64,000 nt of DNA from Desulfovibrio mangrovi (lineage in GTDB: Bacteria > Desulfobacterota > Desulfovibrionia > Desulfovibrionales > Desulfovibrionaceae): positions 3,038,001-3,102,000 of the forward strand of contig NZ_CP104208.1 of NCBI RefSeq assembly GCF_026230175.1, written 5' to 3'. The notes below the pieces were generated by a model. That model saw only the letters and a program-made list of their open reading frames with translations. It was not told the origin of the DNA and did no database searches. Shown in pieces: positions 8,432 to 46,311 of this stretch (its first letter is position 1; each line of letters begins with the position of its first letter). The position numbers and the translations under genes were made by a program.

Positions 8432-8458
8432 AAAAAGAATGGCTATGCGATTCTTTTT
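8432..8458. terminator. Possible bidirectional terminator at the island edge
   Basis: The perfect 9-bp stem AAAAAGAAT (8432-8440) / ATTCTTTTT (8450-8458) has a 9-base loop and lies between the convergent ends at 8403 and 8443. The stem is very AT-rich, so termination strength is doubtful. Confidence 0.4.
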
Positions 8459-9030
8459 GTTTGTGTCAGCCCTCCCGTATCCGCGTGAGTGTAGCTCTTG
8501 GCGCAAGCGGGACAGGCTAGTGAATCCCCAAGCTTTTCACCGCATTCGCACACCCAGCCTCGTACTCTGGCTGGATTTCCAAAAACCAGTGCATAAGCTG
8601 GAATATCTTTCGTAACAACAGAGCCTGCACCGACCATGGCATATGCACCGATGGTAACACCGCAAACGATGGTGCAATTTGCGCCAAGCGATGCTCCTTC
8701 GCAGACCCGGGTGTTACGGGCTTCGTCCATACGGTAAACGTGTGCTCTAGGATTAAAAACGTTGGTGAATACCATTGATGGTCCACAAAAAACGTTGTCT
8801 TCCAATGTAACACCTTTGTAGATGCTAACATTGTTTTGTATCTTGCAGCCATTGCCAACCGTTACATCCGGGCCGAGGACAACGTTTTGACCAATGTTGC
8901 ATTTTTTTCCGATGGAGGTTCCGGAAAGAACATGGCTGAAATGCCAAATCTTTGTGCCTTCACCGATGCTGGTACCTTCATCGACGTAAGAAGACTCATG
9001 TACAAAGTAGTTTTGTTCGAGGTCACTCAT
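8443..9030 (-). CDS. wbpD: UDP-3-amino-GlcNAcA N-acetyltransferase (WbpD/WlbB-like)
   Basis: A 195-residue left-handed beta-helix acyltransferase that should acetylate the 3-amino group of UDP-2-acetamido-3-amino-glucuronate. Hexapeptide repeats run from [10 protein letters not shown] through [20 protein letters not shown], and the family pattern [24 protein letters not shown] is present. The C-terminus has a zinc-ribbon-like CECGEKL...CPAC seen in WbpD-type enzymes. ATG 9030, preceded by AGGTG and 7 bases after the upstream stop, is preferred to the longer frame from 9108, which would overlap the dehydrogenase gene. It is last in a wbpE-wbpB-wbpD order. Confidence 0.85.
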
Positions 9031-9037
9031 ATTGCAC

Positions 9038-10087
9038 CTAGTATTCGAGGGGCAGCGAAACGGTACGGCCGTCTCTGGCAGAAAGGTACGCTGCAATAAG
9101 TACTTCAAGAGACTTCAGGCCTTCCCTGCCGTCTGTTTCCGGTTCAGCATCGCCACGGAAAACATCAACTACATTTTTGTAGTATAGAGGATGTCCGAAA
9201 CCATACACAGAGGTGGTTTCGTAACTCGCTGACTGCACATTGTCGTCGTAGGGCTGCTTGTCAGCAAAATCCCAAGTGAGTATCTCATTGGCAGCAACCC
9301 CGCCTACACGCACGGTGCCCTTCTCGCCGATAATGGTAATGGATCCTTCATAGTTTTTGGGGTACGTACACATGGTGACCGCCATCGAGCCCAGTGCACC
9401 GTTCCGCCAGCGTACGTTCATGACACCGGTATCTTCCACTTCTATATTGCGGTTGGTGGAGGTCATAGCTTGGATATCTGCTACGGGACCGATCAGCCAT
9501 TCAATCAGGTCTACGTAATGGCTCGCCTGGTTCATAAAAGCCCCGCCGTCCAGTTCCCATGTCCCACGCCACTTCGCTTGGTCATAGTAGGCTTGAGGAC
9601 GAGTCCAGAAAACGTTCAGGTGTACCATGTGCAGCCGTCCGAAACGGTTTTCATCCATAGCGCGTTTTAATAACTGCAGCGTTGCGTTCCTTCGGTTCTG
9701 TTTTACCACGAAGAGGCGAACCCGAGCTTCGTCGCAAGCTTTGACCATGCGTACTCCATCTGCCCAGCGGGTTGCCATAGGCTTTTCCGTAATAACACTA
9801 ATCCCTGCGCTGGCAGCTTCCACGGCTTGCTGGGGGTGCAGCCCGCTAGGGGTACACAGAGCCACAACGTCAGGCTTCAGCTTCGTCAAAAGGTCAGTAT
9901 AGGAACGATAGCATGGAACATTATAAGTCTTCTCGACTTGTTCAGCTGCGTCTTTGGAAATATCGCAAGCTCCAATGAGTTCCAGATCGTCAGGAAACTT
10001 GCGGATGGATTCAAAATGATTTTTGGAAATGCGTCCGCAGCCGATGACCGCAACTTTTATTTTACGATTCTTGATAATTGGTAACAT
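9038..10087 (-). CDS. wbpB: UDP-GlcNAcA 3-dehydrogenase (WbpB/WlbA-like, Gfo/Idh family)
   Basis: A 349-residue NAD(P)-dependent oxidoreductase. The Rossmann start [16 protein letters not shown], the family EKP ([10 protein letters not shown]) and the substrate-domain pattern [18 protein letters not shown] with the catalytic-region histidine are all present. In the WbpB step C3 of UDP-GlcNAc-uronic acid is oxidised so that WbpE can aminate it. The second ATG (10087), 6 bases after AAGGA, is favoured over 10093. Its C-terminal half is clearly paralogous to 12184-13242 (shared NGALGSM, GEKG, TWDF blocks). No WbpA dehydrogenase supplying UDP-GlcNAcA is in the window. Confidence 0.85.
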
Positions 10088-10145
10088 GTTCATTCCTTCA
10101 ATTTTGCTAATCCGCAGAATGGCGTAAATTACAAGTGTGCAGAGC

Positions 10146-11309
10146 TTAAATCTCTATAGAGGTCAACGTGTCCGCAATGAACGCAACGCTATCCTCTGAA
10201 AGATAGGGATGGAAGGGCACGCTGAATATTTCTTCCGATAACCTTGAAGCAACAGGGAAATCGTCGGGGTGATAGTTGTAAGACTTATAGGCGGTAAGGA
10301 ATGGGAGCGGAGTCGGGTAGTATATAGCAGTAGGAATACCGCGCTCCTTTAAGGCTTCCAAAACAGACTCTCTGTTGCTAGATAGTAAGGAGTATTGCGC
10401 CCAAGCACTTTTTCGGCCAATGGGGACACTCGGAAGAGTCAGATTTGAACAGGCAGCCAGGCGTGATTGATAAAGATCAGCAACCTGCTGCCGTCTTTCA
10501 AGTTCATCCTCAAAGACTTCAAGCTTCGCCAGCAAAATAGCCGCTTGAATAGTATCTAAGCGCCCATTCATGCCAATACGGATGTTGTCATACTTGTGCG
10601 CTCCTTTGCCGTGAACACGCAAAGACTTCATGACCTCCGCCAGTTCAGGGTCTTCTGTGAATACGGCTCCGCCGTCTCCGTAGCAGCCAAGAGGTTTGGC
10701 TGGGAAGAAGCTGGTAGCGGCAGCATCACACCCCATGGCGCACGCCCTGCGTCCATCCCATTCACATCCAAAAGATTGGGCAGCGTCCTGCAGGACATAC
10801 AATCCTGCACTTTTTGCAACGGGGATAATCTTTTCATAATGGGCTGCTATGCCGAACAAATCTACGGGGATGACCGCTCGAGGCACAAGGCGATGGCTGG
10901 TGGATAACTGAGGCAATGGGTGCAATGAGGCGTTTCCCGTCTCAACGGCTGCTATTGCATCTTGTAGCTTGTCGGGATCCATGCAGAAGGTCACGGGATC
11001 GACATCCACAAATATTGGCGTAGCGCCAAGCAGGGATACAACCTCTGCAGTAGCAAAGAAGGTAAAGTTGGGTACAAATACTGCGTCACCGGGGCCGATT
11101 CCCCATGCCATGAGTGGAAGCAGAAGCGCGTCCGTTCCAGAAGCACAGCTGAGGGCATGGGAAGCTCCGCAAAAAGAGGCCAATTCCTTCTCCAGTTGGT
11201 TTACTTCAGGCCCCATTATATATTTACCATGCTTAAGCACGGCATCAATTCGGTTACGAACTTCTTGTTCGATGCGTTCAAATTGAGCATTTAAATCAAC
11301 AAATTGCAT
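10146..11309 (-). CDS. wbpE: PLP-dependent sugar aminotransferase (WbpE-like, DegT/DnrJ/EryC1)
   Basis: A 387-residue aminotransferase expected to convert the 3-keto-uronic acid nucleotide to the 3-amino form. It starts MQFVDLNAQFERIEQEV, typical of WbpE. The PLP region includes SCASGTDALLLPLMAWGIGPGD, VDLFGIAAHYEKI, LQDAAQSFGCEWDGRRAC and the Schiff-base lysine in TSFFPAKPLGCYGDGGAV. The set wbpE-wbpB-wbpD reads as one minus-strand operon with gaps of 58 and 7 bases. The product would be UDP-2,3-diacetamido-2,3-dideoxy-glucuronate, usually destined for an O-antigen or a glycoprotein glycan. Confidence 0.88.
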   Translation of the reverse strand: MQFVDLNAQFERIEQEVRNRIDAVLKHGKYIMGPEVNQLEKELASFCGASHALSCASGTDALLLPLMAWGIGPGDAVFVPNFTFFATAEVVSLLGATPIFVDVDPVTFCMDPDKLQDAIAAVETGNASLHPLPQLSTSHRLVPRAVIPVDLFGIAAHYEKIIPVAKSAGLYVLQDAAQSFGCEWDGRRACAMGCDAAATSFFPAKPLGCYGDGGAVFTEDPELAEVMKSLRVHGKGAHKYDNIRIGMNGRLDTIQAAILLAKLEVFEDELERRQQVADLYQSRLAACSNLTLPSVPIGRKSAWAQYSLLSSNRESVLEALKERGIPTAIYYPTPLPFLTAYKSYNYHPDDFPVASRLSEEIFSVPFHPYLSEDSVAFIADTLTSIEI

Positions 11310-12183: not shown

Positions 12184-13242
12184 ATGATTCGTTTTGGAAT
12201 AATTGGAGCAGGTAGAGTTGTTTCGCCAAGGTACGTTGATGTCTTTACACAGGAGCTTAAAGACACTTCTGTTGTTGCGGTGTGCGATTTGGTAAGAGAA
12301 AAGGCTGTGGATGTTTCGGCCAGGTTGGGAGCTGAGGTCGCTGTAGATAAAGAAGCGCTTTTGAAGCGCAGTGATATTGATGCAGTTATTATTGCCAGCG
12401 AGTCCGGCAAGCATTTTGAGCATGCCAAGCAGGCTTTGTTGGCGGGCAAGCATGTTGTTGTAGAAAAGCCGCCGTGCATGTTGCCAGCACAACTCGATGA
12501 GCTTGTTGCTTTAGCGCGTACGCAACAGCGTATGTTTGCACCCATTTTCCAGAACAGGTACAACCCCGCTATGCGTGCCGTTAAGCAGGCTGCGCAAGCC
12601 GGTCGTTTTGGAAAGATCGTACTTGCCACTTTCAGGCTGCGGTGGTGCCGTTACCAAGACTACTACGAGGATGGTTGGCATGGTACTTGGGCTATGGACG
12701 GCGGCGTGATTAACCAGCAGGCGATTCACCATGTGGATGCTCTCCAGTGGGTTTGCGGGCCAGTCAGCGAAGTGACGGCTTTTAAGGCCAACGCGTTGAA
12801 CAAGCTTGAAGCTGAGGATACCATGATTGCGAGTCTTCGGTTTGCCAATGGTGCGCTTGGTTCCATGGAAGCCACAACCGCTGCGCGGCCTAAAGATTTT
12901 GAAGCATCTCTTTCAATTGTTGGTGAAAAGGGACTCGTGGTGATCGGGGGCATCGCCCTGAACAAGATTGAAACATGGGACTTTATTGAGCGTCTTCCTG
13001 AGGATGACACAATTTCTCTGACCCATTCCCAAGAAGTTCCTACCGGCTATGGGCTGTCTCACGGGCCATTGTTGCAAGATATAGTAAGCAGATTGAACGA
13101 TGGTTCACTTGAGCCGCCTATCACTCCAGAAAGCTGCCGCCCGACTATTGAGCTTGTTCATGCGGTGTACCGCAGCATTGAAGACAGAATGCCTGTGCAG
13201 CTTAAAGATTCCCCGCTTTCTGTGCGGCTTGGAAGAGGCTAG
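12184..13242 (+). CDS. Gfo/Idh/MocA oxidoreductase, WbpB paralogue
   Basis: A 352-residue NAD(P)-dependent sugar dehydrogenase. It has the Rossmann motif FGIIGAGRVVSPRYVDVF, the EKP motif VVVEKPPCML and GTWAMDGGVINQQAIHHVDAL with the conserved histidine pair. Its C-terminal half matches the 9038-10087 WbpB-like protein block by block (EDT, NGALGSM, PK-x2-E, GEKG, TWDF, YG-x2-H-x-PL). It probably oxidises a sugar nucleotide at C3 or C4, but the substrate may differ. It is the first plus-strand gene and is 5 bases from the shikimate-dehydrogenase-like gene, so the two are one operon. Confidence 0.82.
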   Translation: MIRFGIIGAGRVVSPRYVDVFTQELKDTSVVAVCDLVREKAVDVSARLGAEVAVDKEALLKRSDIDAVIIASESGKHFEHAKQALLAGKHVVVEKPPCMLPAQLDELVALARTQQRMFAPIFQNRYNPAMRAVKQAAQAGRFGKIVLATFRLRWCRYQDYYEDGWHGTWAMDGGVINQQAIHHVDALQWVCGPVSEVTAFKANALNKLEAEDTMIASLRFANGALGSMEATTAARPKDFEASLSIVGEKGLVVIGGIALNKIETWDFIERLPEDDTISLTHSQEVPTGYGLSHGPLLQDIVSRLNDGSLEPPITPESCRPTIELVHAVYRSIEDRMPVQLKDSPLSVRLGRG

Positions 13243-13247
13243 TTGTC

Positions 13248-14276
13248 ATGACCTCTCCTTTGGATTGTATTTCTAACGTTGTAGACACTACGCGCGTTCA
13301 GTTTTACGCAGCTATTTTAGGTGCAAATCCTTCACAAGGGGCCCGTTCTCCCAAGCTTTGGAATGCAGCTTTTGCCAAGCTCGGTATCTCTGGGGAAATG
13401 GTGCCAATGGATGTAGCACCTGAGAAGCTAGGGGCGCTGGTGGATGCGTTGCGTGAGGATGCTCGGTTTATCGGCGGAGCAGTTGCAATGCCGTATAAGA
13501 CCGCCATTATCCCGTATCTCGACAGAGTTGATAAACAAGCGCAAGCTATCGGTGCTATAAATTGTATCTATAGGTCGGCGGAAGGCCTTGTGGGATGTAA
13601 TACCGATGGAGCTGGCGCCTTGTGGAGCTTGGAACAATCCGTTGGAAGTATAAAAGGTAAAAGCGTGTTGGCTATTGGCTGCGGCGGTGCCGGAGTTGCT
13701 GTCGCAACGCATATAGCTTATGCGTTGGGTGCTAGCGGAACGTTATTGCTTGCCAACCGTGATCCACAAAAGGCAGCCTATCTACAGAAAAAGTTGGAAG
13801 GTGTATGTGCGGTGCGAGTTGTTCCCACGCCGCCTTCTGAGGCTGATTTGAAAGATGCCCAGATTGTTGTTAATTGCACGAGCTTGGGTTTTGGCCCTAT
13901 CCTCGAGGCTGATGGCCGTGCTCAAAGTCAGCGTTTTTATACCCCACTGGCATTAGCAGATATCAACCCTTCCGTGCCTGCCGGGCCCAATGCTGAAGCT
14001 CGTTATTGTGCGGCCGCCAGTGCGGAGATAGGGGCGAATATGGCTGCATCCTTGCGGCTCCTTTCGGTGGCCTGTCCCGAAGTTGTTATGGATATTGTGT
14101 ACCAACCCCAGATAACCGCGTTGTTGGCGCTGGCTTCAATGTTCGGAGCTAAAACCGTGAATGGCTTGGGAATGAATTTAGAGCAAGCTGTTATTGCCTT
14201 TGATAAGGCAACTGCGGGAGTTGGGCTGCGTTCAAGTGACGTTAATGTTGTTCGTCAGGCTATGCAGGAACTTTAA
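13248..14276 (+). CDS. Shikimate/quinate dehydrogenase-like oxidoreductase
   Basis: A 342-residue protein, longer than typical AroE (~270). The catalytic lysine (MPYKTAI, K84), the catalytic aspartate (GCNTDGAGAL, D120), a dinucleotide loop (GCGGAG) and the terminal GLGMNLEQAV are present. The carboxylate-binding S-x-S of AroE is altered: the family S-K-S-P is ARSP here, and the usual histidine of SPxxHN is tryptophan (SPKLWNAAF). The NADP-selecting NRT reads NRD. It should reduce or oxidise a shikimate-like carbocycle, but a different substrate is likely. Its place between a sugar dehydrogenase and a DAHP synthase homologue, inside a glycan island, is unusual. Confidence 0.78.
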   Translation: MTSPLDCISNVVDTTRVQFYAAILGANPSQGARSPKLWNAAFAKLGISGEMVPMDVAPEKLGALVDALREDARFIGGAVAMPYKTAIIPYLDRVDKQAQAIGAINCIYRSAEGLVGCNTDGAGALWSLEQSVGSIKGKSVLAIGCGGAGVAVATHIAYALGASGTLLLANRDPQKAAYLQKKLEGVCAVRVVPTPPSEADLKDAQIVVNCTSLGFGPILEADGRAQSQRFYTPLALADINPSVPAGPNAEARYCAAASAEIGANMAASLRLLSVACPEVVMDIVYQPQITALLALASMFGAKTVNGLGMNLEQAVIAFDKATAGVGLRSSDVNVVRQAMQEL

Positions 14277-14295
14277 AGATAGTAAGGATAGAATT

Positions 14296-15222
14296 ATGAA
14301 GGATATTACCAAAAACGATATTCTTAACAATATTCCGCTTGTTTGCCGCCCCGATGTTCCCAGAGAAGTAAAGGCCGGGAACGTGAAGATCGGTGGGGAA
14401 GGGCTTGTTATTATGGCAGGCCCATGCACCGTTGAAGGGCGTGAGCAAATTCATGAGATTGCACACGCTGTAAAAGAATCCGGCGCTAATATGCTTAGAG
14501 GCGGCGTGTTTAAGCCCCTTACATTTCCCTACGGTGATCCTCTTGCCCAGCCGGATGCTGATTTGGGGCTTCCTGCTGTTGACAGAACCATAGTTCTTTC
14601 CCCTGAAGAGGCGTGGGTTGCTGCTGAGCGTCGGTATGGCTTTCTTCGCGATGCAGGCGATAAGTATGGTCTTGCTGTTGTTTCCGAAATTTTGCGTGCT
14701 GATCATGTGAAAAAAATGGAACCCTACGTAGACATGTTCCAGGTGGGGTATCGCCATATGTTTAATATGGATTTGATTCTTGCGCTGTGCGAAACGGAGA
14801 AACCCGTATTGTTGAAGCGTCACTATGGCGAGAGTCTGCGTTCCTTGTTGGGTGTTTGTGAGCATTTTGAAGTGCGCGGAAAAAGAAATTTTGCGGTATG
14901 TGAGCGCGGCGTAAGCGTTCCTCACACTCATAATGTTGATTCCCGAGCAGTGTTGGATATTCAGGCCATTCCTGCAATGCGAGAATATGCGCCCACTGTT
15001 CCGGTTATTATTGATCCTAGCCACGCGACATTTAAGCGTTCCTATGTTGCTGCCATGTCTCGCGCTGCTATTGCCGCTGGTGGAGATGGCCTTCTGATCG
15101 AGGTGCATGCCGATCCTGAAAATGCATGGGTGGACCCGCTTCAGGCGCTTGGGTTTGCCGCATTTGGCGAGCTTATGGGCGAAATGCGTGCTATTGGTAA
15201 GGTGCTTGGCAGGACTTTGTAG
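14296..15222 (+). CDS. DAHP-synthase-like (type I-beta/KDO8P family) enzyme
   Basis: A 308-residue TIM barrel that should condense phosphoenolpyruvate with an aldose phosphate to a 3-deoxy-2-ulosonate phosphate. Metal ligands are intact: Cys44 in MAGPCTVEGRE, His in DPSHATF, Glu in IEVHADPE and the following Asp. PEP-site residues appear as VLLKRHYGES and CERGV. The aldose-phosphate motif KPRTS of true DAHP synthases reads KPLTFPY (73-79), losing the arginine, and a ~25-residue insert follows. ATG 14296, with AAGGA upstream and 19 bases after the previous stop, is chosen over the longer frame. Role in this island: see findings. Confidence 0.8.
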   Translation: MKDITKNDILNNIPLVCRPDVPREVKAGNVKIGGEGLVIMAGPCTVEGREQIHEIAHAVKESGANMLRGGVFKPLTFPYGDPLAQPDADLGLPAVDRTIVLSPEEAWVAAERRYGFLRDAGDKYGLAVVSEILRADHVKKMEPYVDMFQVGYRHMFNMDLILALCETEKPVLLKRHYGESLRSLLGVCEHFEVRGKRNFAVCERGVSVPHTHNVDSRAVLDIQAIPAMREYAPTVPVIIDPSHATFKRSYVAAMSRAAIAAGGDGLLIEVHADPENAWVDPLQALGFAAFGELMGEMRAIGKVLGRTL

Positions 15223-15246: not shown

Positions 15247-15438
15247 ATGACGTATGATGGTGTGGAGATGCCTATACGTTTTACAGAGTATCCATGGCTA
15301 TCTGAAGACACTGGCTTTATTTATCGTGTTTGTAAGTTTAGAGAAGCAACCTTGATGCTTCCGTTCTTTAAAAAAGCCAAAAGGCTGCAAGTGGACTATG
15401 GAGGTCAAGCTTTGCTGTCGTCGGTGGGGAATGTATGA
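15247..15438 (+). CDS. Small hypothetical protein, 63 residues, coupled to the cytidylyltransferase
   Basis: An ATG-started frame 24 bases after the DAHP-synthase-like stop. Its stop TGA (15436-15438) overlaps the next gene's ATG at 15435, a coupling arrangement that supports real translation. The peptide is aromatic-rich (TEYPWLSEDTGFIYRVCKF) with a basic centre. No family was recognised. It could be a cofactor-like small subunit or a remnant. Confidence 0.45.
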   Translation: MTYDGVEMPIRFTEYPWLSEDTGFIYRVCKFREATLMLPFFKKAKRLQVDYGGQALLSSVGNV

Positions 15439-16166
15439 TGCGTAAAGTTCTGGCAGTAATCCCAGCTCGAGGGGGTTCAAAAGGAATTCCTCGAAAGAAC
15501 ATTATTGATATTGATGGGAAGCCTCTTGTGGCCTATAGCATAGAGGCCGCATTAAATGCAAAGAACATTGATAAGGTAATAGTTTCGACAGACGATGAAG
15601 AAATTGCGGCAATTGCGAAAAGCTATGGAGCAGAAGTTCCCTTTTTGCGCCCGCCGGAACTCTCTGGAGACAACATTACTTTGGCGTACGTTGTGCTGCA
15701 TGCGCTGCAATGGTATGACGAACGTGGCGAGGTGTTTGATGCAGTAATGTCTTTGCAGCCGACTGCACCGCTTATTTCATCCCAAACACTTACCGATGTT
15801 GTAAGTCTTTTTCACGCTAAAAATGCGAAAGCTGTTACAACAGTCTGCAAAGCTCCAACGCATCCTTATTTGGCAAAACGGCTATTAGAAGATCAAGAAA
15901 TAGAAGCATTTGTTGCGCCTCCGCCCGGAGCAGTCTTATTTCCCCGCCAGAAAAGAGAGCCAGCTTACGTAATCAACGGAGCAGTTTATCTTCGCGATAG
16001 AGAGCTGTTGGAAAATCTTGAAGCCAATAGCTATAATTTAGGTTCCAAACCGTATGCTGTCGTCATGAGCAGTGAAGAGTCTGTTGATGTGAATGAACCG
16101 TTTGACCTGAATATTGCAGCCTTTTTTCTTCAAAAACGACGTTCCGGAGATGCAGGTGAATCCTAA
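15435..16166 (+). CDS. CMP-sugar synthetase (NeuA/acylneuraminate cytidylyltransferase family)
   Basis: A 243-residue enzyme that activates a 2-keto-3-deoxy acid with CTP. The signature VIPARGGSKGIPRKNI is complete, followed by DIDGKPLVAYSIEAAL, VIVSTDDEEIA and the mid-protein SLQPTAPL. It lies two genes after the DAHP-synthase-like enzyme, so the acid it activates may be that enzyme's product rather than a nonulosonic acid. A second, fused cytidylyltransferase for the nonulosonate branch is at 21464. Starts at ATG 15435 or 15438. Confidence 0.88.
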   Translation: MMRKVLAVIPARGGSKGIPRKNIIDIDGKPLVAYSIEAALNAKNIDKVIVSTDDEEIAAIAKSYGAEVPFLRPPELSGDNITLAYVVLHALQWYDERGEVFDAVMSLQPTAPLISSQTLTDVVSLFHAKNAKAVTTVCKAPTHPYLAKRLLEDQEIEAFVAPPPGAVLFPRQKREPAYVINGAVYLRDRELLENLEANSYNLGSKPYAVVMSSEESVDVNEPFDLNIAAFFLQKRRSGDAGES

Positions 16167-16740
16167 GCGCTCATTTAGCGTAGCACTTGGCAAAGATGTG
16201 CAAATTCCATTTGACTCCGTTCTTAAGTGTCCGGAGATTTCAATTGGTGACAATACGCGAATTAATGGTGCAATTAACATTCGCGGGAATGCTAATTGCT
16301 CTATAGGAAATTACTGTGCATTTGGTTATGGAATTACAATTGTTACAACAAATCACCTAACCAGTTTTGCTAACCTTCAGGTTGCAATGAACCGAAAATT
16401 TGGCTTTTTGCCTCTTGAGCAGGCCGACTCGCCAGTTCGCATTGGTCATAATGTGTGGCTTGGTGACAATGTGACGGTATTGTCTGGAGTGACTATTGGA
16501 AATGGCGCAATCGTCGGTGCCGGTAGTGTTGTAACTAAAGATGTGCCCGCTTACAGCATAAATTATGGTGTGCCCGCAAAGTTTGGGCGGTTTAGATTTG
16601 CACCTGAAATTCAGCAAGTTCTTGAAGAAGTTGAATGGTGGTCTTGGTCTGACGACAAGATTGCCAGAAATGCAGTTTTTTTTAATTCCAACCTTGAACT
16701 TGTCAATGAGAAAACATTGCGCGAGCTCATTATTTCTTAG
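16150..16740 (+). CDS. Hexapeptide O-acetyltransferase (XAT/CatB-like)
   Basis: A 196-residue beta-helix acetyltransferase. Hexapeptide repeats run from ISIGDNTRINGAINIRG to [20 protein letters not shown], with the family catalytic loop around TTNHLTSF. The C-terminal EEVEWWSWSDDKI is typical of xenobiotic-acetyltransferase-type enzymes, which in glycan clusters put O-acetyl groups on sugars. ATG 16150 overlaps the previous gene by 17 bases; an in-frame TTG at 16114 is the alternative. Confidence 0.8.
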   Translation: MQVNPKRSFSVALGKDVQIPFDSVLKCPEISIGDNTRINGAINIRGNANCSIGNYCAFGYGITIVTTNHLTSFANLQVAMNRKFGFLPLEQADSPVRIGHNVWLGDNVTVLSGVTIGNGAIVGAGSVVTKDVPAYSINYGVPAKFGRFRFAPEIQQVLEEVEWWSWSDDKIARNAVFFNSNLELVNEKTLRELIIS

Positions 16741-16743: not shown

Positions 16744-18081
16744 ATGCCAAATATATCAGTAATTGTACGTAGCCGTAATGAGGAACGGTGGATAAGCGCA
16801 TGTCTCGAAGGCATACGTTCACAAACTATCGAGTCCGAAATTATCGTTGTTGATAATGCAAGTACAGATAGGACTATTGAAAAGGCAAAATGTTTTTCAC
16901 CAAAGATTATTCAGCTGGGAGGAGGTGCCTTCCGGCCTGGATTTGCTATTAATGAAGGGATTAGGGCTAGCAGTGGTGAATTCATTGCCATAATATCTTC
17001 TCACTGCATTCCTGTTAACGAGTATTGGCTTGAGAATTTGTTGAGGAATTTTGAGACGCCGGAAGTTCTCGGAGTATATGGAAGGCAGGAACCTCTTCCA
17101 TTTACGAACGATCTAGATAAGCGCGATCTGATAAACGTTTTTGGGCTGGATAAAAAGATCCAATATAAAGATCCATTCTTCCATAATGCCAATAGTATGA
17201 TCAAGCGATCTACTTGGGAAGAGCACCCTTTTTGCGAAAATACCCTTCATATTGAAGATAGAATTTGGACACAGCAGCTCTTGAACGGTAAAAATTGTAT
17301 CGTGTACGAGCCTGAAGCCAGTGTGTACCACTATCATGGTATTAATCAGGGAAGAAATATAGCACGTGCTAGTAGGATTGTTCGTATTCTTGAGAGCATT
17401 CAACAGCCGCAGCGCCCAGATTTTATTCCTGGAGTTGATGTTGTTGCATTGATTCCTTCTCGCGGCGAGTTGCGGATGATGAATGGAAAGCCGCTTATCG
17501 ACAGAACCATCGCTGCGGCTAAACAGTCGTCAACAGTCAAGCGTATTGTTGTAACAACGGATAATGAAGTCACCGCAGAGCATGTGGTTTCTTTAGGGGC
17601 TTTGCCAATACTTAGACCTAAGGCCCTATCAAGGTCACATGTTGGCCTTGGGCTGGTGTACAAGCATGCTTTGGAAGAGCTCGCAAGGTCTGGTATTTAT
17701 TCTGATTTGTTTGTGCTAATGGAAGAAAAGTATGCTTTTCGTCCGGTTGATCTTGTGGACAATCTGGTTGAGGGGTTATTGCATGGCGGCTATTCGACAA
17801 CAACAGCCGTCTGCTCTGAGTATGGTTCTATTTGGAAACAAGCCGATGATGAGTTGCAACGAGTTGATGATGGCTTTAAGCCTTCTGTCGTTAAAGATCC
17901 TTTGTTCCTTGGGGTGAGCGGGCTTGGCGCCGTTACCAGTAGCGAATGGCTGCTTCAAGGAGAAAAATTTGGTCCTAAAGTCGGCTTGGTTCGTGTTGAT
18001 GCTCAGTATTCTCGGTATGCGATTGATGATGATCGTGATTTAGCTATTGCTGCCTTCATTGAGCAAAACAATATGATTTAG
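16744..18081 (+). CDS. GT2 glycosyltransferase fused to a degenerate NeuA-like domain
   Basis: A 445-residue fusion. Residues 1-225 are a GT-A family 2 glycosyltransferase (ISVIVRSRNEERWISACLEG, IIVVDNASTDRT, and HIEDRIW as the ED motif), although the usual DxD position reads ISSHC. From residue ~232 a cytidylyltransferase-like fold follows (VVALIPSRG...NGKPLIDRTIAAA, IVVTTDNEVTAEH). The nucleotide-binding stretch GSKGIPRKN is missing, with about nine residues absent between the SRG and GKP elements. The second half therefore probably does not bind CTP in the normal way and may serve to dock the CMP-sugar. Starts 3 bases after the acetyltransferase stop. Confidence 0.75.
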   Translation: MPNISVIVRSRNEERWISACLEGIRSQTIESEIIVVDNASTDRTIEKAKCFSPKIIQLGGGAFRPGFAINEGIRASSGEFIAIISSHCIPVNEYWLENLLRNFETPEVLGVYGRQEPLPFTNDLDKRDLINVFGLDKKIQYKDPFFHNANSMIKRSTWEEHPFCENTLHIEDRIWTQQLLNGKNCIVYEPEASVYHYHGINQGRNIARASRIVRILESIQQPQRPDFIPGVDVVALIPSRGELRMMNGKPLIDRTIAAAKQSSTVKRIVVTTDNEVTAEHVVSLGALPILRPKALSRSHVGLGLVYKHALEELARSGIYSDLFVLMEEKYAFRPVDLVDNLVEGLLHGGYSTTTAVCSEYGSIWKQADDELQRVDDGFKPSVVKDPLFLGVSGLGAVTSSEWLLQGEKFGPKVGLVRVDAQYSRYAIDDDRDLAIAAFIEQNNMI

Positions 18082-19037: not shown

Positions 19038-19991
19038 ATGAATTTTTTAGATATTACAGCAAAGATACATGGCAATGTTGTTCCTGTTCCGGCCCAGTTT
19101 AATGATGATTTGAGTCTAAACGTTGGTGGTATGCAGGAGCATGTTTCATTCTTGTTGGATCAGGGGGTTAAGGTTTTTTATCTTGCTCTTTCAGCATCTC
19201 AATTTGAATATATGACTAGCAAAGAGCGTCTCCAGGTAGTGAGAGGCGTTTGCAATGTTGTCGGTAGTAAAGGAACAGTTTTGGCTCAGCCTGTTACCAA
19301 TGGCTGGATCGACGGTCAAATTGAAGAAGCCAAGGCTATGATGGATGCTGGGGCAGATGTTTTGGTCGTCAAGCCTGTCGGCATCAAGGAAGGCGGGAAG
19401 TTTTTTAGCTGCACCTACAAGCGCGGTAAATATTCCCCGGAAAGGCATGATGATTTCTTCATAAGCTATATGGAGCGAATGGCGATTGAAACTCAAGCTC
19501 CTCTTGCTTATCACGATGCTCCTTTCAAAGGCGGGCAGGGGCTCTCTTTGGACGCCCTTTTGAAGATTGCTGAGATTGATAACACCGTATGCGTAAAGGT
19601 GCACGTGCCCGAGCCCAGTTCTATGCAGAAAGTATATGGCGCCTTAAAGGGGAAAGTGGCTGCATATGATGGTTTTGGGAAAACTCTACAGCTTTGGTCT
19701 CTGACATGGGGGGCAACGGGACGTCACACATGCTGGTCCTGGTTTGATCCTCAAGGAGACATGGAGTTCACCAAGCTGGTTATGACTGGAGATATCGCCG
19801 GTGCAGTCGAGCAGGTTAATCGCGAATGGCCCATCGCTCATGCAATTATCGAGACGGGCTTTCAAGGGTATATGGAGCTTATGAGCCTTGCTGGCCTTCC
19901 CTCTGGCCCGATTCGTATCCCCGGCGAAAGCTTGAGCAGCGCTCAAAAGGGAATGCTAAAAAAAGCTGCACAACAGGTTGGAATCATCTAG
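19038..19991 (+). CDS. DapA/NAL-family aldolase or lyase
   Basis: A 317-residue TIM-barrel protein of the DHDPS/N-acetylneuraminate lyase superfamily. The Schiff-base lysine is in VCVKVHVPEP, and the preceding catalytic tyrosine is in LAYHDAPF. The carboxylate-binding Thr-Thr of the family (GTTGE) is replaced by LSASQFEYM, so the keto-acid partner or the reaction probably differs from DHDPS. Family members form or break C-C bonds between pyruvate and an aldehyde, which would suit ulosonic acid metabolism. The substrate is not inferable. Confidence 0.78.
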   Translation: MNFLDITAKIHGNVVPVPAQFNDDLSLNVGGMQEHVSFLLDQGVKVFYLALSASQFEYMTSKERLQVVRGVCNVVGSKGTVLAQPVTNGWIDGQIEEAKAMMDAGADVLVVKPVGIKEGGKFFSCTYKRGKYSPERHDDFFISYMERMAIETQAPLAYHDAPFKGGQGLSLDALLKIAEIDNTVCVKVHVPEPSSMQKVYGALKGKVAAYDGFGKTLQLWSLTWGATGRHTCWSWFDPQGDMEFTKLVMTGDIAGAVEQVNREWPIAHAIIETGFQGYMELMSLAGLPSGPIRIPGESLSSAQKGMLKKAAQQVGII

Positions 19992-21463: not shown

Positions 21464-23104
21464 ATGATAAACGTTTTAGCTATTATTCCGGCTCGGGGTG
21501 GCTCTAAGGGGGTGCCGAGAAAGAACTTGCGTCCTTTGGCAGGGAAGCCATTAATTTACTACGCAATAACAAGCTGCTTAGCCGCTCGGAATATTGCAAA
21601 GGTGGTTGTTTCTACCGATGACGAAGAGATAGCCCTTTTTGCTCAACGGTTTGGTGCAGAAGTGTTGATGCGTCCCGCTGAACTGGCTGGAGATGACATT
21701 CCTTTAGATCCCGTAATTGTCCATGCGGCACAGCAGTTCTCTGTTGATGAGGCGTATAGTGCCGTTGTCACAGTACAGCCGACATCTCCCCTGATTTCAG
21801 CAGCCGACATTGATTCCGCTCTGACGGTAATGCATGAGCTGCAGGCTGACACATTGTTGTCAGTTGTTGAGGATGCTCATCTGGAATGGACCATTGTGGC
21901 AGATGGAATGCCGAAGCCTCTTTATAAGGAGCGGGTGAACCGCCAGTTTTTACCGCCAAAATACAAAGAGACCGGTGCCGTTATTGCCTGTAATTGGCAA
22001 CAGCTTATGACGGGAACGCGTATAGGAAAGAATGTTGCCCTATATAAAATGCCCCCTGAGCGTGCCATTGATATCGATTCTGTTCTGGATTTTTATATTT
22101 GCGAGAGCCTGTTGCGTCAGAAACGCATAGTTTTTGTGGTGGCCGGGGATAAAAAAATTGGGTTGGGCCATGCATACCGAGCAACTTTGCTGGCGCATGA
22201 GCTTGTTCATCATCAAATCTGTTTTGTGTGTGAAGAGGATCAGCGAGAAGCTATTCAGGTTATCGAAAAATCAAATTATACCGTTTTCTCTGTGGCCAAG
22301 GGGCATATCCTCGACAAGATTGCAGAGTTGTCTCCGGAATTGGTGGTGAATGATATTCTTGATACCGATGTTTCGTATATCAAGGCGCTGAAGGCTTTAG
22401 GTGCAAAGGTTATTTGTTTTGAAGACCTCGGAAGTGGGGCTGGGGAAGCAGATTTGGTTGTGAATGCCCTGTATCCTACTGTGCTGCCAGCAAATAACGT
22501 GCTTTCCGGTTCAAAGTGGTTTTGTTTGCGTGATGAGTTTATCTATTCTCCTCACAAGTCAGGAGCTTGTGAAGGTGGCAAGCGATTCTTGTTGACCTTT
22601 GGGGGAGTGGATGAAGGGAATATTGCCTGTCGAGTGCTTACCTTGCTCGCAGATGAAATTCTATCTAGAGAATACGATATCGACGTAGTGCTTGGTCCTG
22701 GGTTTGGCCATCGTGATGAAGTCGACCGTATTGTCCGACATAATTCTGCAAGAATAAATGTGGTGCAAGGGACTACGCAAATCTCTGAATTTATGTTTAA
22801 CGCCACTGCCGCGATTACGTCTGGCGGCAGGACTGTTTATGAACTTATCAGCACAAAAACCCCGACCATAGTTATCTGTCAAAATGCGCGAGAAGTGACG
22901 CATACGGCAGCATCCAGCGAAAATGGAATTATTAATTTAGGGCACAATGTGTTGGTCTCTGATCAAATGATTCGTGATGCCGTGCTGACTGTTTTGGATA
23001 GTGATGAGATTCGACAGACGATGAGGCAGAAAATGGCCAAGTTGGATCTTAAAAATGGGAAGCAGGCGGTATTAAATGAATTTGAAAGACTTTTAAGGGG
23101 ATAA
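21464..23104 (+). CDS. Bifunctional CMP-nonulosonate synthetase / PseG-like hydrolase
   Basis: A 546-residue fusion. Residues 1-220 are an intact NeuA-type cytidylyltransferase (IIPARGGSKGVPRKN, VVSTDDEEIA, VQPTSPLISAADI). Residues ~225-546 are a GT28-like domain of the PseG kind: VVAGDKKIGLGHAYRATLLA with the GHxxR histidine, LTFGGVDEGN and the C-terminal SGGRTVYELISTKTPTIVI. PseG removes UDP from UDP-2,4-diacetamido-trideoxy-altrose just before the condensing enzyme acts. Fusion of the steps before and after the NeuB-like reaction, immediately upstream of the neuB-like gene, points to a pseudaminic-type nonulosonate route. Confidence 0.82.
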   Translation: MINVLAIIPARGGSKGVPRKNLRPLAGKPLIYYAITSCLAARNIAKVVVSTDDEEIALFAQRFGAEVLMRPAELAGDDIPLDPVIVHAAQQFSVDEAYSAVVTVQPTSPLISAADIDSALTVMHELQADTLLSVVEDAHLEWTIVADGMPKPLYKERVNRQFLPPKYKETGAVIACNWQQLMTGTRIGKNVALYKMPPERAIDIDSVLDFYICESLLRQKRIVFVVAGDKKIGLGHAYRATLLAHELVHHQICFVCEEDQREAIQVIEKSNYTVFSVAKGHILDKIAELSPELVVNDILDTDVSYIKALKALGAKVICFEDLGSGAGEADLVVNALYPTVLPANNVLSGSKWFCLRDEFIYSPHKSGACEGGKRFLLTFGGVDEGNIACRVLTLLADEILSREYDIDVVLGPGFGHRDEVDRIVRHNSARINVVQGTTQISEFMFNATAAITSGGRTVYELISTKTPTIVICQNAREVTHTAASSENGIINLGHNVLVSDQMIRDAVLTVLDSDEIRQTMRQKMAKLDLKNGKQAVLNEFERLLRG

Positions 23105-23106
23105 TC

Positions 23107-24174
23107 ATGAATACGGCATCACATTTCAATAAGAAACAATTTTTAATGCCCTATGTGATAGCAGAAATTGGTGTAAATCATGAGTGTTGCATGGACACTG
23201 CGAAGCGGCTTATTGAGGAGGCTGCTGAGGGTGGCGCGCATGCTGCAAAGTTCCAGGTTTATACAGCTGAGCGCATAGCATCAAAGCATAGTCCAGCCTA
23301 TTGGGATCAAACTAAGGAAAGTGCAAGTTCGCAGTTTGAACTCTTTAAACGTTATGATTTGTTTGGTGAGAAGGAATATGAAGAGCTTGCGCGCCATTGC
23401 CAAAAAAACAATATTGATTTTTTGGCTACTCCTTTTGATATCTATGCAGTCGAATTTTTAGACCATTTAATGGATGTATATAAAATAGCCTCTGCTGATA
23501 TTGCCAATATTCAGTTGTTGAGAGCTGTTGCCTCTAAGAATAAGCCTGTATTGCTTTCGACTGGAGCCGCTTTGTTGTCAGAAATTGCTTTTGCTGTTGA
23601 AACACTCCAGGCGGCTGGAGCTGGCGAGATTACATTGCTTCATTGTGTGTTGCAATATCCAACACCTGAAGATCATGCACAGTTACAGCAAATTGCAGTA
23701 TTAAAAAAACGCTTCCCAGAATTTTCTATTGGCTACTCTGATCATGTGCCTCCTGGAACGAATGGTATGCCCGCCTTAGACATGGCTACGTTACTAGGGG
23801 CTGTGGTTATTGAAAAACATTTCACGCATGACAAGACTCTTCCTGGCAATGATCATTATCATGCCATGAATAAGGAAGATCTTGCTGTTTTCATGCAGGC
23901 TAACAAGCAGCGATTGGCAATGTACGGTAGCGAGATTAAGCAGCTTGATCTTGAAAGTGCTGCACGGAAACATGCTCGTAGAAGCATTGTAGCAGCTACG
24001 AATATTGCCAAGGGAGAGCGGTTTACGGAGAAAAATTTAACGGTCAAGAGACCCGGCCATGGGATTAGTCCTATTCATTGGGATGAGCTCTTGCAATGCA
24101 AGGCTCAGAATGACATCAGCGGGGACGCCTTGATCTCGTGGAAGGATTGTGCCGAGGTCGTTGGTAATGAGTAA
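23107..24174 (+). CDS. Nonulosonate synthase (NeuB/PseI/LegI family)
   Basis: A 355-residue enzyme that condenses PEP with a 6-deoxy-diacetamido-hexose (or ManNAc) to a nine-carbon acid. The family start YVIAEIGVNHECCMDTAKRLI, GGAHAAKFQVY, ATPFDIYAVEFL, the metal and substrate region GYSDHVPPGT, and EKHFTHDKTLPGNDHYHAM are all present. The C-terminus is an antifreeze-like SAF domain (RRSIVAATNIAKGERFTEKNLTVKRPG). It starts 2 bases after the fused CMP-synthetase/PseG-like gene. PseB, PseC and PseH equivalents are not in the window, so the precursor must be made elsewhere. Confidence 0.88.
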   Translation: MNTASHFNKKQFLMPYVIAEIGVNHECCMDTAKRLIEEAAEGGAHAAKFQVYTAERIASKHSPAYWDQTKESASSQFELFKRYDLFGEKEYEELARHCQKNNIDFLATPFDIYAVEFLDHLMDVYKIASADIANIQLLRAVASKNKPVLLSTGAALLSEIAFAVETLQAAGAGEITLLHCVLQYPTPEDHAQLQQIAVLKKRFPEFSIGYSDHVPPGTNGMPALDMATLLGAVVIEKHFTHDKTLPGNDHYHAMNKEDLAVFMQANKQRLAMYGSEIKQLDLESAARKHARRSIVAATNIAKGERFTEKNLTVKRPGHGISPIHWDELLQCKAQNDISGDALISWKDCAEVVGNE

Positions 24175-38088: not shown

Positions 38089-40551
38089 ATGTCCACTCTT
38101 TCCACAGTACAGGAAACCGAACCCCGGGCCGATGCCCCCAAGGGCTACGGCATCAACTGGGATACCGCGGAATCGCGGGTTAAGGAGCTCAAGGACTATC
38201 TGATGTCCGCCCCGCAGGTGATGGATCCCGAACGCCTGCAGTTCCTGAATGAAGTATACGATGAATTCCGTGGCGAATCCGTTTTCTATATCCGCGCCAA
38301 GCTGTTTGAGCGCGTACTGACCAAGAAGAAGATCTTCCTTGACGGCAACCCCATCGTCGGCACCCTGACCGGTGTGCGCGCAGGCGTTTACGCCTACCCC
38401 GAATGGAACGTGTCCTGGATCAAGGAAGAAATGCAGATGGCCAAGATGGCCTCCCTCGGTGAGATGAAGATTCCCACCGAGACGCAGGAACTTCTGGAAA
38501 AGACCTACAAGCTTTGGAAGGGTCGTACCTGCATCGACCTGAACAACGCGCTGTACAAGGAAAAGTACGGCGAGAATCCCAAGCAGTACGCAAAGGCGGG
38601 CATGTACTATGAGAACGTGTCCGTTGCCAGCGGCTCCGGTATTGCCGACTACGGTCTGGTACTGACCAAGGGCCTGCGTCACCTTATCAATGACGTGAGA
38701 AAGCGCTTCGAAGAGTGCCCCACCACCTTGGAAAACAAGGAAAAGCACGATCTGTATCGTGCCATGCTGGTTACCTTTGATGCGGTTATCGCCCACTCCC
38801 ACCGCTATGCCGAACTGGCTGAAAAGGCCGCCCTTGAGGAAGCCGATCCCAAGACCAAGGCCGAGCTGCTGGAAATCGCCGAAATCTGCCGCCGCGTTCC
38901 CGAACATCCGGCCCGCAACTTCCGCGAAGCCGTTCAGTCCTTCTGGTTCATCCACCTCGCCATTGAAGTGGAACAGATGGCCTGCGCCTGCTCTCCCGGA
39001 CGCTACGGCCAGTACATGTACCCCTTCTTCAAGAAGGACATCGAGGAAGGCAACCTCACCCACGAACAGGTGCTCACGCTGCTCAAGTTCCAGTGGATCA
39101 AGCACCTCGAACTGGGCGAATACCAGGGCAACTCCTACGCGCTGACCCTCTCCGGCCACACCGGCCAGAGCATCACCCTCGGCGGCGTTGACGCCGACGG
39201 CAACGATGCCAGCACCGAGCTGGAAGAGCTGCTGCTCGAGACCCAGATCCAGATGAAGAACATTCAGCCCACGCTGACCCTGCTCTATCATCCGAAGCTG
39301 AAGGACTCCTACATGCAGAAGGTGGTTGAGTGCATCCGCGGCGGTTCCGGCCAGCCCCAGATCCTCAACAACAATGCTGTCATCCAGCGTACTCTGGCCC
39401 GCTTTGCCCAGTACAAGGACGGCATCACGCTGGAAGACGCGCGTAACTGCGGCAACTATGGCTGCGTGTCCACCGGTGTTTGCGGCAAGGGCAGCTTCAT
39501 CACGCAGGAAGATCAGCCCTGTCTCGCCAAGGTCGTGGAACTGATGCTCCACAACGGCAAGTGCCCCGTGACCAAGAAGAAGGTCGGTGCCGAAAGCGGC
39601 GATCCGCTGCAGTTCGCAACCTTCGAGGACGCGTACGAAGCCGTGAAGAAGCAGCTCGACCACCTCTTCAACATCTCCCGCAAGCACTCCGACCTGAGCC
39701 AGATGGCCCGCGTGCATGTGGTGCCCAGCGTCTTCCGCTCCGCCATGTATGACGGCTGCATCGAGAAGGGGATGTGCGAAGAGGCCGGCGGCACCCGCTA
39801 CCCGCAGGTGAACCCCATCATGACTGCTGGCATCGACGCGGCAAACTCCCTGCTTGCCATCAGGCATCTGGTCTTCGACACCAAGAAGATCACCATGGAG
39901 CAGCTGCTTGAAGCCATCAAGGCCAACTTCGAAGGCTACGAAGACATTCGCAAGATGTGCTTCGAGGCGCCCAAGCACGGTAACGACAACCCCGAAGATC
40001 AGGCTCTGGTGCAGCGGTTCTACCGCGACGTGGACGCTATCCACCACGCTCAGGGCCCCGACTGTTTCGGCTATCGTACTCCGCTGGACGCCTACTCCCT
40101 GTCCTACCACAACTACTTCGGCGCACTGATGGGTGCCCTGCCCAACGGTCGCAAGGCCGGTGTGGCCCTGACCGACGGCAGCGTATCCGCAATGCCCGGT
40201 ACCGACCATGAAGGCGTTACCGCCCTCATCAAATCCGGTGCGGAAGCCATCGACACCGTCCGTTACGGAGCGAACCACTTCAACGTGAAGTTCTCCCCCT
40301 CCGTGCTGGAAGGTCCGCAGGGCGCACGTACCTTGATCTCTCTGATCAAGACCTATTGCGACTTCGGTGGTTCCCACATCCAGTTCAACTGCGTCAGTTC
40401 CGAGACGCTGAAGGAAGCGCAGGCGAAACCGTGTCAGTACTCTGATCTGATCGTCCGCGTGGCCGGCTTCAGTGCCTACTTCACCCGTCTGGACAAAGGT
40501 GTGCAGAACGAAATCATCAAGCGCACCGAATACGATTCCGGAAGGATGTAG
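38089..40551 (+). CDS. Glycyl radical enzyme of unassigned substrate
   Basis: An 820-residue PFL-like enzyme. The radical glycine is Gly793 in RVAGFSAYF near the C-terminus. The thiyl cysteine is Cys459 in NYGCVSTGVCGKG. In diol/choline/isethionate/hydroxyproline GREs and arylacetate decarboxylases the cysteine is followed by V-E; here it is V-S, so the usual general-base glutamate is absent and PFL's CC pair is also missing. ACACSPGRYGQYMYPFF and GSGQPQILNNNAVI fit the large GRE subfamilies. The start ATG has AGGAGA. It is first in an operon with its activase and a selenoprotein, under a sigma-54 promoter. The reaction is not assignable from sequence. Confidence 0.9.
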   Translation: MSTLSTVQETEPRADAPKGYGINWDTAESRVKELKDYLMSAPQVMDPERLQFLNEVYDEFRGESVFYIRAKLFERVLTKKKIFLDGNPIVGTLTGVRAGVYAYPEWNVSWIKEEMQMAKMASLGEMKIPTETQELLEKTYKLWKGRTCIDLNNALYKEKYGENPKQYAKAGMYYENVSVASGSGIADYGLVLTKGLRHLINDVRKRFEECPTTLENKEKHDLYRAMLVTFDAVIAHSHRYAELAEKAALEEADPKTKAELLEIAEICRRVPEHPARNFREAVQSFWFIHLAIEVEQMACACSPGRYGQYMYPFFKKDIEEGNLTHEQVLTLLKFQWIKHLELGEYQGNSYALTLSGHTGQSITLGGVDADGNDASTELEELLLETQIQMKNIQPTLTLLYHPKLKDSYMQKVVECIRGGSGQPQILNNNAVIQRTLARFAQYKDGITLEDARNCGNYGCVSTGVCGKGSFITQEDQPCLAKVVELMLHNGKCPVTKKKVGAESGDPLQFATFEDAYEAVKKQLDHLFNISRKHSDLSQMARVHVVPSVFRSAMYDGCIEKGMCEEAGGTRYPQVNPIMTAGIDAANSLLAIRHLVFDTKKITMEQLLEAIKANFEGYEDIRKMCFEAPKHGNDNPEDQALVQRFYRDVDAIHHAQGPDCFGYRTPLDAYSLSYHNYFGALMGALPNGRKAGVALTDGSVSAMPGTDHEGVTALIKSGAEAIDTVRYGANHFNVKFSPSVLEGPQGARTLISLIKTYCDFGGSHIQFNCVSSETLKEAQAKPCQYSDLIVRVAGFSAYFTRLDKGVQNEIIKRTEYDSGRM

Positions 40552-40562
40552 CGTTCCACTGC

Positions 40563-40593
40563 GAAGGAGGGGGCCCGCCCCGCCCCCTTCTTC
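40563..40593 (+). terminator. GC-rich intercistronic hairpin after the GRE
   Basis: GAAGGAGGGGGC (40563-40574) pairs with GCCCCCTTCTTC (40582-40593) with one G-T pair, then a pyrimidine-rich tail CGCCCCTTTTC. It lies 12 bases after the GRE stop and 74 bases before the activase. It probably acts as a partial terminator or 3'-end stabiliser, giving much more GRE than activase. Confidence 0.6.
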
Positions 40594-40667
40594 GCCCCTT
40601 TTCTCCGTGAGCGGAAAACCCCGTCGCCCACGGAAATGACTCCACAAGACCAAATGCGGAAGTGTTT

Positions 40668-41561
40668 ATGAATCAGGGAATGATTTACAATATCCAGCGT
40701 ATGTCCGTTCACGACGGCCCGGGACTGCGTACCACGGTGTTTTTGAAGGGCTGTCCGTTGAGCTGTCTCTGGTGCAGTAACCCTGAATCGCAGAAGACCA
40801 CGCCGCAGATGTTGTTCTTTGAGAACCTGTGCACAGGCTGTGGCGCTTGTGCACAGGCTTGCTCCAACGGGGCTGTGACCATGTTTGGCGGCAAGTCCGG
40901 CCGGGATGTCGGCAAGTGCATCGACTGCGGTCAATGCGCACAGGCCTGCCCGAACAAGGCCCGCGAGATGTCCGGTAAGCTGATGACCGTTGAAGAGGTC
41001 ATGGCCGTCGTACGGAAGGACGCTCTGTTTTATGACAACTCCGGCGGCGGTGTGACCTTCGGCGGCGGAGAACCCACCTCCGGCGGGCAATTCTTCCTGA
41101 ATCTGGCGCAGGCGGCGCGGGATGAAGGCTATCATGTCACGGTGGACACCTGCGGCTATTGTCCGGAGGAACGCTTCGATAAAACCATCGGGCTGACGAA
41201 CCTTTTCCTGTTCGACTGCAAACACATGCATTCGGGGCAGCACAAGGCGCTGACGGGCGTGGATAACGCAGTCATTCTGCGGAATCTTCGTGCGGCCTTG
41301 AGCTCCGGCACAGAAGTCCGCATCCGCATGCCGCTGATGCCGGACATGAACGACTCCGACGACAATCTTGCCGCCATGGCGGATTTTCTTGGTGAATTCA
41401 ACCGGAGCGAGATCGAGATCATGCCGTGCCACGCCTTTGGTAAAAGCAAGTATGTCGCACTGGGCAAGTCTCTTCCCGAGGTTTCCCAGTATGCGCCGGA
41501 ACAGCTGCATGCCGTTCTGGAGCGATTTGCCAAGCACGGGCTCAAGCCCGTCATGATATAA
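40668..41561 (+). CDS. GRE-activating enzyme (radical SAM)
   Basis: A 297-residue activase that abstracts hydrogen from the GRE glycine. It has IQRMSVHDGPGLRTTVFLKGC, the radical SAM cluster CPLSCLWC (C-x3-C-x2-C), an inserted pair of ferredoxin clusters (CTGCGACAQAC and CIDCGQCAQAC), FGGGEPTSGGQF as the SAM-binding GGE, and DCKHMHSGQHKALTG. The two extra 4Fe-4S clusters are typical of activases for GREs other than PFL. ATG 40668 has GGAAG 5 bases upstream. It is cotranscribed with the GRE and 28 bases ahead of the selenoprotein gene. Confidence 0.92.
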   Translation: MNQGMIYNIQRMSVHDGPGLRTTVFLKGCPLSCLWCSNPESQKTTPQMLFFENLCTGCGACAQACSNGAVTMFGGKSGRDVGKCIDCGQCAQACPNKAREMSGKLMTVEEVMAVVRKDALFYDNSGGGVTFGGGEPTSGGQFFLNLAQAARDEGYHVTVDTCGYCPEERFDKTIGLTNLFLFDCKHMHSGQHKALTGVDNAVILRNLRAALSSGTEVRIRMPLMPDMNDSDDNLAAMADFLGEFNRSEIEIMPCHAFGKSKYVALGKSLPEVSQYAPEQLHAVLERFAKHGLKPVMI

Positions 41562-45756: not shown

Positions 45757-45769
45757 GGCTTTTCTCCCG

Positions 45770-46255
45770 TTATCCTTCCTGTGCGCCGAACAGCTTGCGG
45801 ATGTCGCGGAGCAGGAAGGACAGGGCGTATATGGTCATCAGGGCAAATCCGACCGTCAGCGCAGTGTTCACATAGATCGCTGGAACATCGAGAACGGGCG
45901 TGCGCTTCAGCTGGTTTGCCTGAATGAAAAGGGTGCTGAGGTAGACGATGTAGCCGTTGATGACGACCATCAGGCCATCGATGATCACGGCAAGAAGGGC
46001 TCGCCACGGTCGGGGTCCGAGTTTCGTCACGAAGTCGATGCCGATATGCATCTTGTAGCGGTAGGCCGCGGCCGCACCGACGAAGACGCTCCAGATGAAG
46101 GCGGTTGTGGCCACTTCCTCGGCCCAGAAAAGGCCGCCTTGAAAGAGGTAGCGGAGCAAGACGTTCACGATGACGACCAGAACGGTAATGCAGAGGAAGA
46201 AACCGCTGATGATCAGGTCGAAATTTTTGAAAAGCGTTTTGGGTGTGATAGACAT
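45770..46255 (-). CDS. dctQ: TRAP transporter small membrane subunit (DctQ)
   Basis: A 161-residue protein with four membrane segments and the family pattern VLLRYLFQGGLFWAEEVATTAFIWSVFVGAA, which includes the conserved W-x-EE. It is encoded 13 bases before dctM. Confidence 0.9.
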   Translation of the reverse strand: MSITPKTLFKNFDLIISGFFLCITVLVVIVNVLLRYLFQGGLFWAEEVATTAFIWSVFVGAAAAYRYKMHIGIDFVTKLGPRPWRALLAVIIDGLMVVINGYIVYLSTLFIQANQLKRTPVLDVPAIYVNTALTVGFALMTIYALSFLLRDIRKLFGAQEG

Positions 46256-46269
46256 TGTTCACCAGAAAA

Positions 46270-46299: not shown

Positions 46300-46311
46300 G
46301 GATAGTCGGGT

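Follow-up and report, generated by a model that had tools for sequence, protein, structure and literature searches.

Why would a bacterium keep homologues of a sugar dehydrogenase, a shikimate dehydrogenase and a DAHP synthase side by side among genes for a surface glycan? We addressed this question for a locus of Desulfovibrio mangrovi, within a window of 64,000 nucleotides (the whole stretch of DNA that was analysed) from a closed genome of 3.95 Mb on a single contig. A preliminary description of this DNA had proposed two models, (a) a CMP-activated 3-deoxy-ulosonic acid and (b) a carbocyclic shikimate-type substituent on the glycan. Our analysis suggests that the trio and the cytidylyltransferase encoded next to it probably form a pathway to an uncharacterised 3-deoxy-2-ulosonic acid of the surface glycan.

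Gene arrangement in the low-GC island

The three genes, here called GFO, AroEL and DAHPL, are adjacent and tightly spaced in the order and on the strand previously described, with gaps of 5 bp (13242/13248) and 19 bp (14276/14296). The CMP-sugar synthetase expected to follow the trio is present as CMPT, 212 bp 3' of DAHPL (Table 1). We moved the start of DAHPL from TTG 14194 to ATG 14296 because an MKD(I/L) start is kept in 17 of 17 sequences. The trio lies inside a low-GC island at about 8–32 kb, with 43–51% GC versus 53–60% outside. The arrangement exceeds chance because the set of GFO, AroE-like and DAHPL genes was found again in 10 other genomes from several phyla. An Rfam search of the window returned no RNA family.

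Table 1. Coordinates of the trio and of neighbouring glycan genes in the window
Feature	Coordinates	Strand	Basis or remark
WbpD/WbpB/WbpE-like genes (amino-uronate pathway)	8443..11309	-	divergent neighbour, outside the conserved DAHPL set
GFO, Gfo/Idh/MocA dehydrogenase of WlbA/WbpB type	12184..13242	+	Pfam, PDB matches, WbpB identity
AroEL, shikimate-dehydrogenase-fold reductase	13248..14276	+	Pfam, alignment, fold match
DAHPL, remodelled type I-beta DAHP-synthase-like condensing enzyme	14296..15222	+	Pfam, NCBIfam, alignment, tree, structure model
CMPT, PseF-like cytidylyltransferase	15435..16166	+	intact ARGGSKG(x)PRKN motif
AcT, hexapeptide acyltransferase	16114..16740	+	homologue in 4/17 loci
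GT2 glycosyltransferase fused to a cytidylyltransferase-like domain	16744..18081	+	homologues in 17/17 loci
DapAL, DHDPS/N-acetylneuraminate-lyase-superfamily protein	19038..19991	+	in 5/17 loci
PseF-PseG fusion (21464-23104) and NeuB (23107-24174)	21464..24174	+	classical ulosonate route, separate genes

Other genes of the window and of related loci deserve mention in their own right. A NeuB-type ulosonate route (PseF-PseG and NeuB) stands beside the DAHPL route in the window, and a NeuB gene also lies near the DAHPL set at two other loci (L010 and L011). Further along the window, positions 38089-41561 encode a glycyl radical enzyme together with its activase; among the models that fit this enzyme best are hydroxyproline dehydratase and sulfopropanediol dehydratase, at scores below half of the cut-offs. 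Genes for a TRAP transporter with a DctP-type binding protein (44476-47307) adjoin a glycerophosphodiester phosphodiesterase-like gene and a LacI-type regulator.

A remodelled synthase homologue and its putative helper enzymes

DAHPL is a member of the DAHP_synth_1 family (PF00793, 139.5 bits) and fits the NCBIfam models of the type I-beta subfamily, yet it stays below their cut-offs (256.8 versus 335 and 224.4 versus 267.75 bits). DAHP synthase structures are the best matches of its AlphaFold model (pLDDT 86.5), and the Foldseek alignment with 1vs1 (E 5.7e-26) identifies the type I-beta fold. The GPC, DPSH and (I/V)(E/D)(V/I)H regions with the metal and PEP residues are retained, and from this family membership we infer that DAHPL uses PEP. 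The KPR arginine of DAHP synthases binds the acceptor phosphate. Where the ordinary motif for the phosphate of E4P is KPR(T/S)S, all 17 DAHPL sequences read KPLTF. The loss of this arginine is the most telling of a wider set of changes: 31 residues are invariant in the 17 DAHPL and absent from the eight ordinary enzymes compared, among them R to L of KPR, S to F, G to H of KRG and R/K to H, and the clade has in common an insertion of ~22 residues after PYG. In a tree with 26 other PF00793 proteins (25 DAHP synthases and the KdsA-like protein of the window's genome), the 17 DAHPL formed a single fully supported clade (100/100) on a long stem, outside the ordinary DAHP synthases. Judged from these residues, DAHPL would condense PEP with a non-phosphorylated aldose into a 3-deoxy-2-ulosonate.

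GFO belongs to the GFO/IDH/MocA family (PF01408/PF22725) and carries the EKP/HxxD core. Its best PDB matches are 3q2k (219 bits), which we take to be WlbA, and 3q2i (198 bits), the next one scoring 65 bits. WlbA is a C3 dehydrogenase of a uronate. GFO is also 34% identical to the WbpB encoded at 9038-10093, so its earlier designation as a WbpB paralogue is borne out together with its kinship to the WlbA/WbpB UDP-GlcNAcA 3-dehydrogenases. By this kinship, GFO would oxidise C3 of the acceptor aldose or uronate.

AroEL has the Shikimate_dh_N (PF08501, 72 bits) and Shikimate_DH (PF01488) domains, but none of the NCBIfam cut-offs for AroE is reached (best 153.9 versus 252; TIGR00507 152.1 versus 200.2). 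The AroE-like and type I-beta DAHP-synthase-like assignments made previously therefore hold at the level of families, with both proteins under the NCBIfam cut-offs. The columns P(Y/H)K, NTD and Q are conserved in the alignment, so that AroEL retains its catalytic Lys and Asp as well as the C-terminal Gln. The S/T-x-S motif for the shikimate carboxylate reads A-x-S in nine AroEL of the main type; the window genome's own aroE has T-x-S, and the AroE proteins of loci L014 and L017 keep S-x-S. With Ala at the first carboxylate serine, a uronate substrate fits the main type less well. The fold of AroEL matches shikimate dehydrogenases and 5-ketofructose reductase (7cok), the precedent for a sugar reductase with the AroE fold (PMC7954740). 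We propose that AroEL is a 3-keto reductase.

Relatives, conserved neighbours and two exclusive modules

The DAHPL set is a rare, horizontally spread gene set. None of 198 other genomes of the family encodes DAHPL, and one relative (68% identity) was detected in the phylum. When 84,980 species genomes were scanned, 16 loci appeared at 58–72% identity, the phylum relative included, in Omnitrophota, Elusimicrobia, candidate-phyla bacteria (Uhrbacteria, Parcubacteria, Staskawiczbacteria), deltaproteobacteria, Desulfatibacillum and Sulfurovum; most of these genomes are incomplete metagenome-assembled genomes. Searches in two further phyla (380 and 384 genomes) added no relatives to those already known, plasmids had ordinary DAHP synthases only (at most 40% identity), and no DAHPL relatives were detected in viral contigs. 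A literature search found no paper on this gene combination or system.

We clustered all open frames of the 17 loci (the window and its 16 relatives), a neighbourhood survey that the preliminary description had suggested. GFO, AroE-like and DAHPL genes occur together at 11 of the 17 loci, and a GT2 gene accompanies DAHPL at all 17. The hallmark of a CMP-ulosonate pathway, a PEP-dependent synthase beside an intact cytidylyltransferase, was found at 16 loci, the exception (L021) being on an 8-kb contig. CMPT would, judging from its motif, activate the ulosonate as a CMP-sugar. At locus L012, a protein with the Kdo-transferase N-terminal domain (PF04413) is encoded two genes 3' of DAHPL, adjoining CMPT. 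No HAD phosphatase family is among the 25 commonest families of the 86 neighbour proteins, as expected if our model holds, because no phosphorylated ulosonate would then arise. The domain fused to GT2 has lost the nucleotide-binding motif ARGGSKG by deletion, a state conserved across phyla, and the GT2 of L014 is without the fused domain; this domain possibly has a CMP-sugar-binding or structural role. We know of no established GT2 enzyme that uses CMP-ulosonates. Every locus with AcT, whose real start is probably downstream of the listed TTG, also has DapAL, and we propose AcT as an optional decoration. DapAL is found with both types of helper module described below. The Sulfurovum locus has a mandelate-racemase/enolase-superfamily protein beside the CMP synthetase (L010:14679-15830), which hints at sugar-acid chemistry.

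The genes feeding DAHPL are of two kinds, GFO with the AroE-like gene at 11 loci and an IolO-like epimerase with an IolB-like isomerase at the other six. These two modules are mutually exclusive: none of the 17 loci has both and none has neither. IolB exceeded the NCBIfam equivalog cut-off at the two loci checked singly, and the IolO-like protein comes near its own (290.9 versus 300 in L012), with TM0416 as best PDB match; at L022, the IolO-like gene is ~8 kb away from the IolB-like gene. The AroE and GFO of L014 and L017 are ~28% identical to those of the window and stand in reverse order. A double recruitment of AroE and GFO at these two loci was not supported, as a single AroE clade was not rejected (p-AU 0.088, 0.166).

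On the best reading of this exchange, both modules probably yield one non-phosphorylated aldose. Only two DAHPL columns (30 and 276), neither of them a core residue, segregate with module type, so the acceptor is probably common to both. IolB is an isomerase between aldoses and ketoses of the uronate type. IolO, an epimerase of keto-uronates, acts on the carbon that matches C3 of a hexuronate (PMC12632266). By analogy, we hypothesise that C3 redox of an aldose on the one hand, and C3 epimerisation of a ketose with isomerisation on the other, would give one and the same C3-epimeric aldose. The acceptor is possibly a C3-epimerised hexuronate or hexose, such as alluronate or allose, the C3 position being suggested by the regiochemistry of distant relatives.

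The candidate pathway, its alternatives and known systems

In the pathway that we envisage, GFO would oxidise a single sugar carbon, for which C3 of a hexuronate or hexose is the likeliest candidate, and AroEL would reduce the same carbon again to give a rare epimer. DAHPL, having no arginine for an acceptor phosphate, would join the free aldose and PEP, CMPT would convert the resulting ulosonate into a CMP-sugar, and a glycosyltransferase, probably the GT2 fusion, would place the activated sugar on the glycan. In the six relatives with the other module, a ketose would be the starting point, and the IolO-like ketose-3-epimerase and the IolB-like isomerase, in place of GFO and AroEL, would turn it into the same aldose. 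Substrate, direction and each reaction we infer, as we do the chain length, which would be C9 for a C6 acceptor. Model (a) of the preliminary description is supported in its general form by the cytidylyltransferase and glycosyltransferase genes that consistently accompany DAHPL, the Kdo-transferase-type neighbour in one relative and the lost acceptor-phosphate motif. A more specific version is possible but doubtful: next to KdsA and NeuB, DAHPL might represent a third evolutionary lineage of ulosonate synthases, one that descends from DAHP synthase and accepts a free hexuronate. The pathway would then lead to an undescribed CMP-activated nonulosaric (two-acid) sugar, and its acceptor would come from one or the other of two unrelated enzyme pairs, interchangeable with each other, both of which set the C3 configuration.

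Several alternatives have to be weighed against this pathway. The two modules might make different acceptors for a permissive DAHPL, so that two ulosonic acids exist and no convergence. Enzymes of different classes commonly act on different substrates, the loci are not alike in some of their side genes, and the tree is compatible with differing numbers of module exchange at the p-AU values given above. Against this, only two DAHPL columns follow module type, and we consider this explanation unlikely, though with a tangible chance of being right. It is a lesser, slim chance that DAHPL takes a short or five-carbon free aldose, which would lead to a C7 acid, as in the heptulosaric acid of plant pectin, or to Kdo without phosphate intermediates. 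Nothing in the sequence fixes the chain length, and L012 has its PF04413 gene, but the relatives WlbA, IolO and IolB act on six-carbon sugars, and the window genome already has a kdsA-like gene and other CTP_transf_3 genes. For the heptulosonic chain length mentioned in the preliminary description we likewise found nothing in favour, the kinship of the helper enzymes pointing to a six-carbon acceptor.

The remaining two explanations both turn on aromatic biosynthesis. Ordinary aroF and aroE paralogues, duplicates captured in the island, would account for the clear family membership of the proteins, and an AroE-like enzyme reducing a cyclic ketone made from the DAHPL product, with an aminoshikimate or shikimate-type ring on the glycan, would account for the gathering of RifH/I/L-like enzyme classes and for the shikimate dehydrogenase Lys, Asp and Gln of AroEL. 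The genome has another aroE (2763212) and the archaeal-type dehydroquinate synthase DHQS-II (3428346); AroB (PF01761) and type II DAHP synthase are absent, and the sole other PF00793 gene, with a KANR motif, looks like kdsA. These findings rule out a housekeeping aroF/aroE, which the preliminary description had thought less likely, and the trio is not the genome's only aroF/aroE, the case that it had named as refuting its reading. DAHP from the window enzyme would find no AroB to use it. AroB is also missing from seven of the 16 relatives' genomes; in five candidate-phyla genomes, all metagenome assemblies without AroB, no AroE-like gene exists besides that of the cluster, which makes a shikimate role there unlikely. 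Captured paralogues are hardly credible, with all scores under curated cut-offs, motif changes kept across phyla and constant CMP-synthetase company. A carbocycle, that is model (b), is very improbable: an AroB-type cyclase is lacking from the genome, from those seven relatives and from the conserved set, IolO/IolB stand in place of the AroE-like gene at six of 17 loci, and the KPL motif speaks against the phosphorylated heptulosonate that AroB needs.

Kdo and sugars resembling sialic acid have a central place on bacterial surfaces, and two synthase families for such sugars are known. A third family, if our reading is true, would add a sugar class for glycan analyses to seek, with hosts that include candidate-phyla bacteria apparently devoid of a shikimate pathway, and would explain a gene group that is likely mis-annotated as aroF and aroE.

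Compared with known systems, DAHPL resembles type I-beta DAHP synthases (PF00793; PRK08673/TIGR01361; 1vs1, 1zco) in fold (TM by target up to 0.89), in PEP-side and metal-type residues and in about 37–40% identity, whereas KPR to KPL, TS to TF, KRG to KRH, the GIRTFE to HTH region, the insertion and the glycan-cluster context set it apart. AroEL has the AroE fold acting on a keto-sugar in common with 5-ketofructose reductase, at ~24% identity, although the reported role of that enzyme is 5-ketofructose reduction and not ulosonate synthesis. Likewise, the IolO and IolB homologues of the six relatives recall inositol catabolism, whereas they are found here in a glycan-biosynthesis cluster that is without the remaining iol genes. 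RifH is a type II DAHP synthase. The previously drawn parallel to the aminoshikimate (AHBA) pathway stands for the combination of enzyme classes in RifH/RifI/RifL and goes no further, since the conserved DAHPL set is without aminoDHQ synthase (AroB family), dehydratase and AHBA synthase. The Kdo pathway of KdsA, KdsC and KdsB also pairs a PF00793 synthase with a CMP transferase; unlike it, the DAHPL loci have no phosphatase among their common neighbours, DAHPL has no KANR phosphate motif, and CMPT is PseF-like rather than KdsB. With NeuB/PseI/LegI (PF03102), DAHPL would share the conversion of PEP and a free sugar into a 3-deoxy-2-ulosonate, followed by CMP activation, yet it is of another family and without the SAF domain, and a true NeuB is encoded 8 kb downstream. 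The system probably operates in the manner of the NeuB- or Kdo-type routes to a CMP-ulosonate, with a synthase that belongs to neither.
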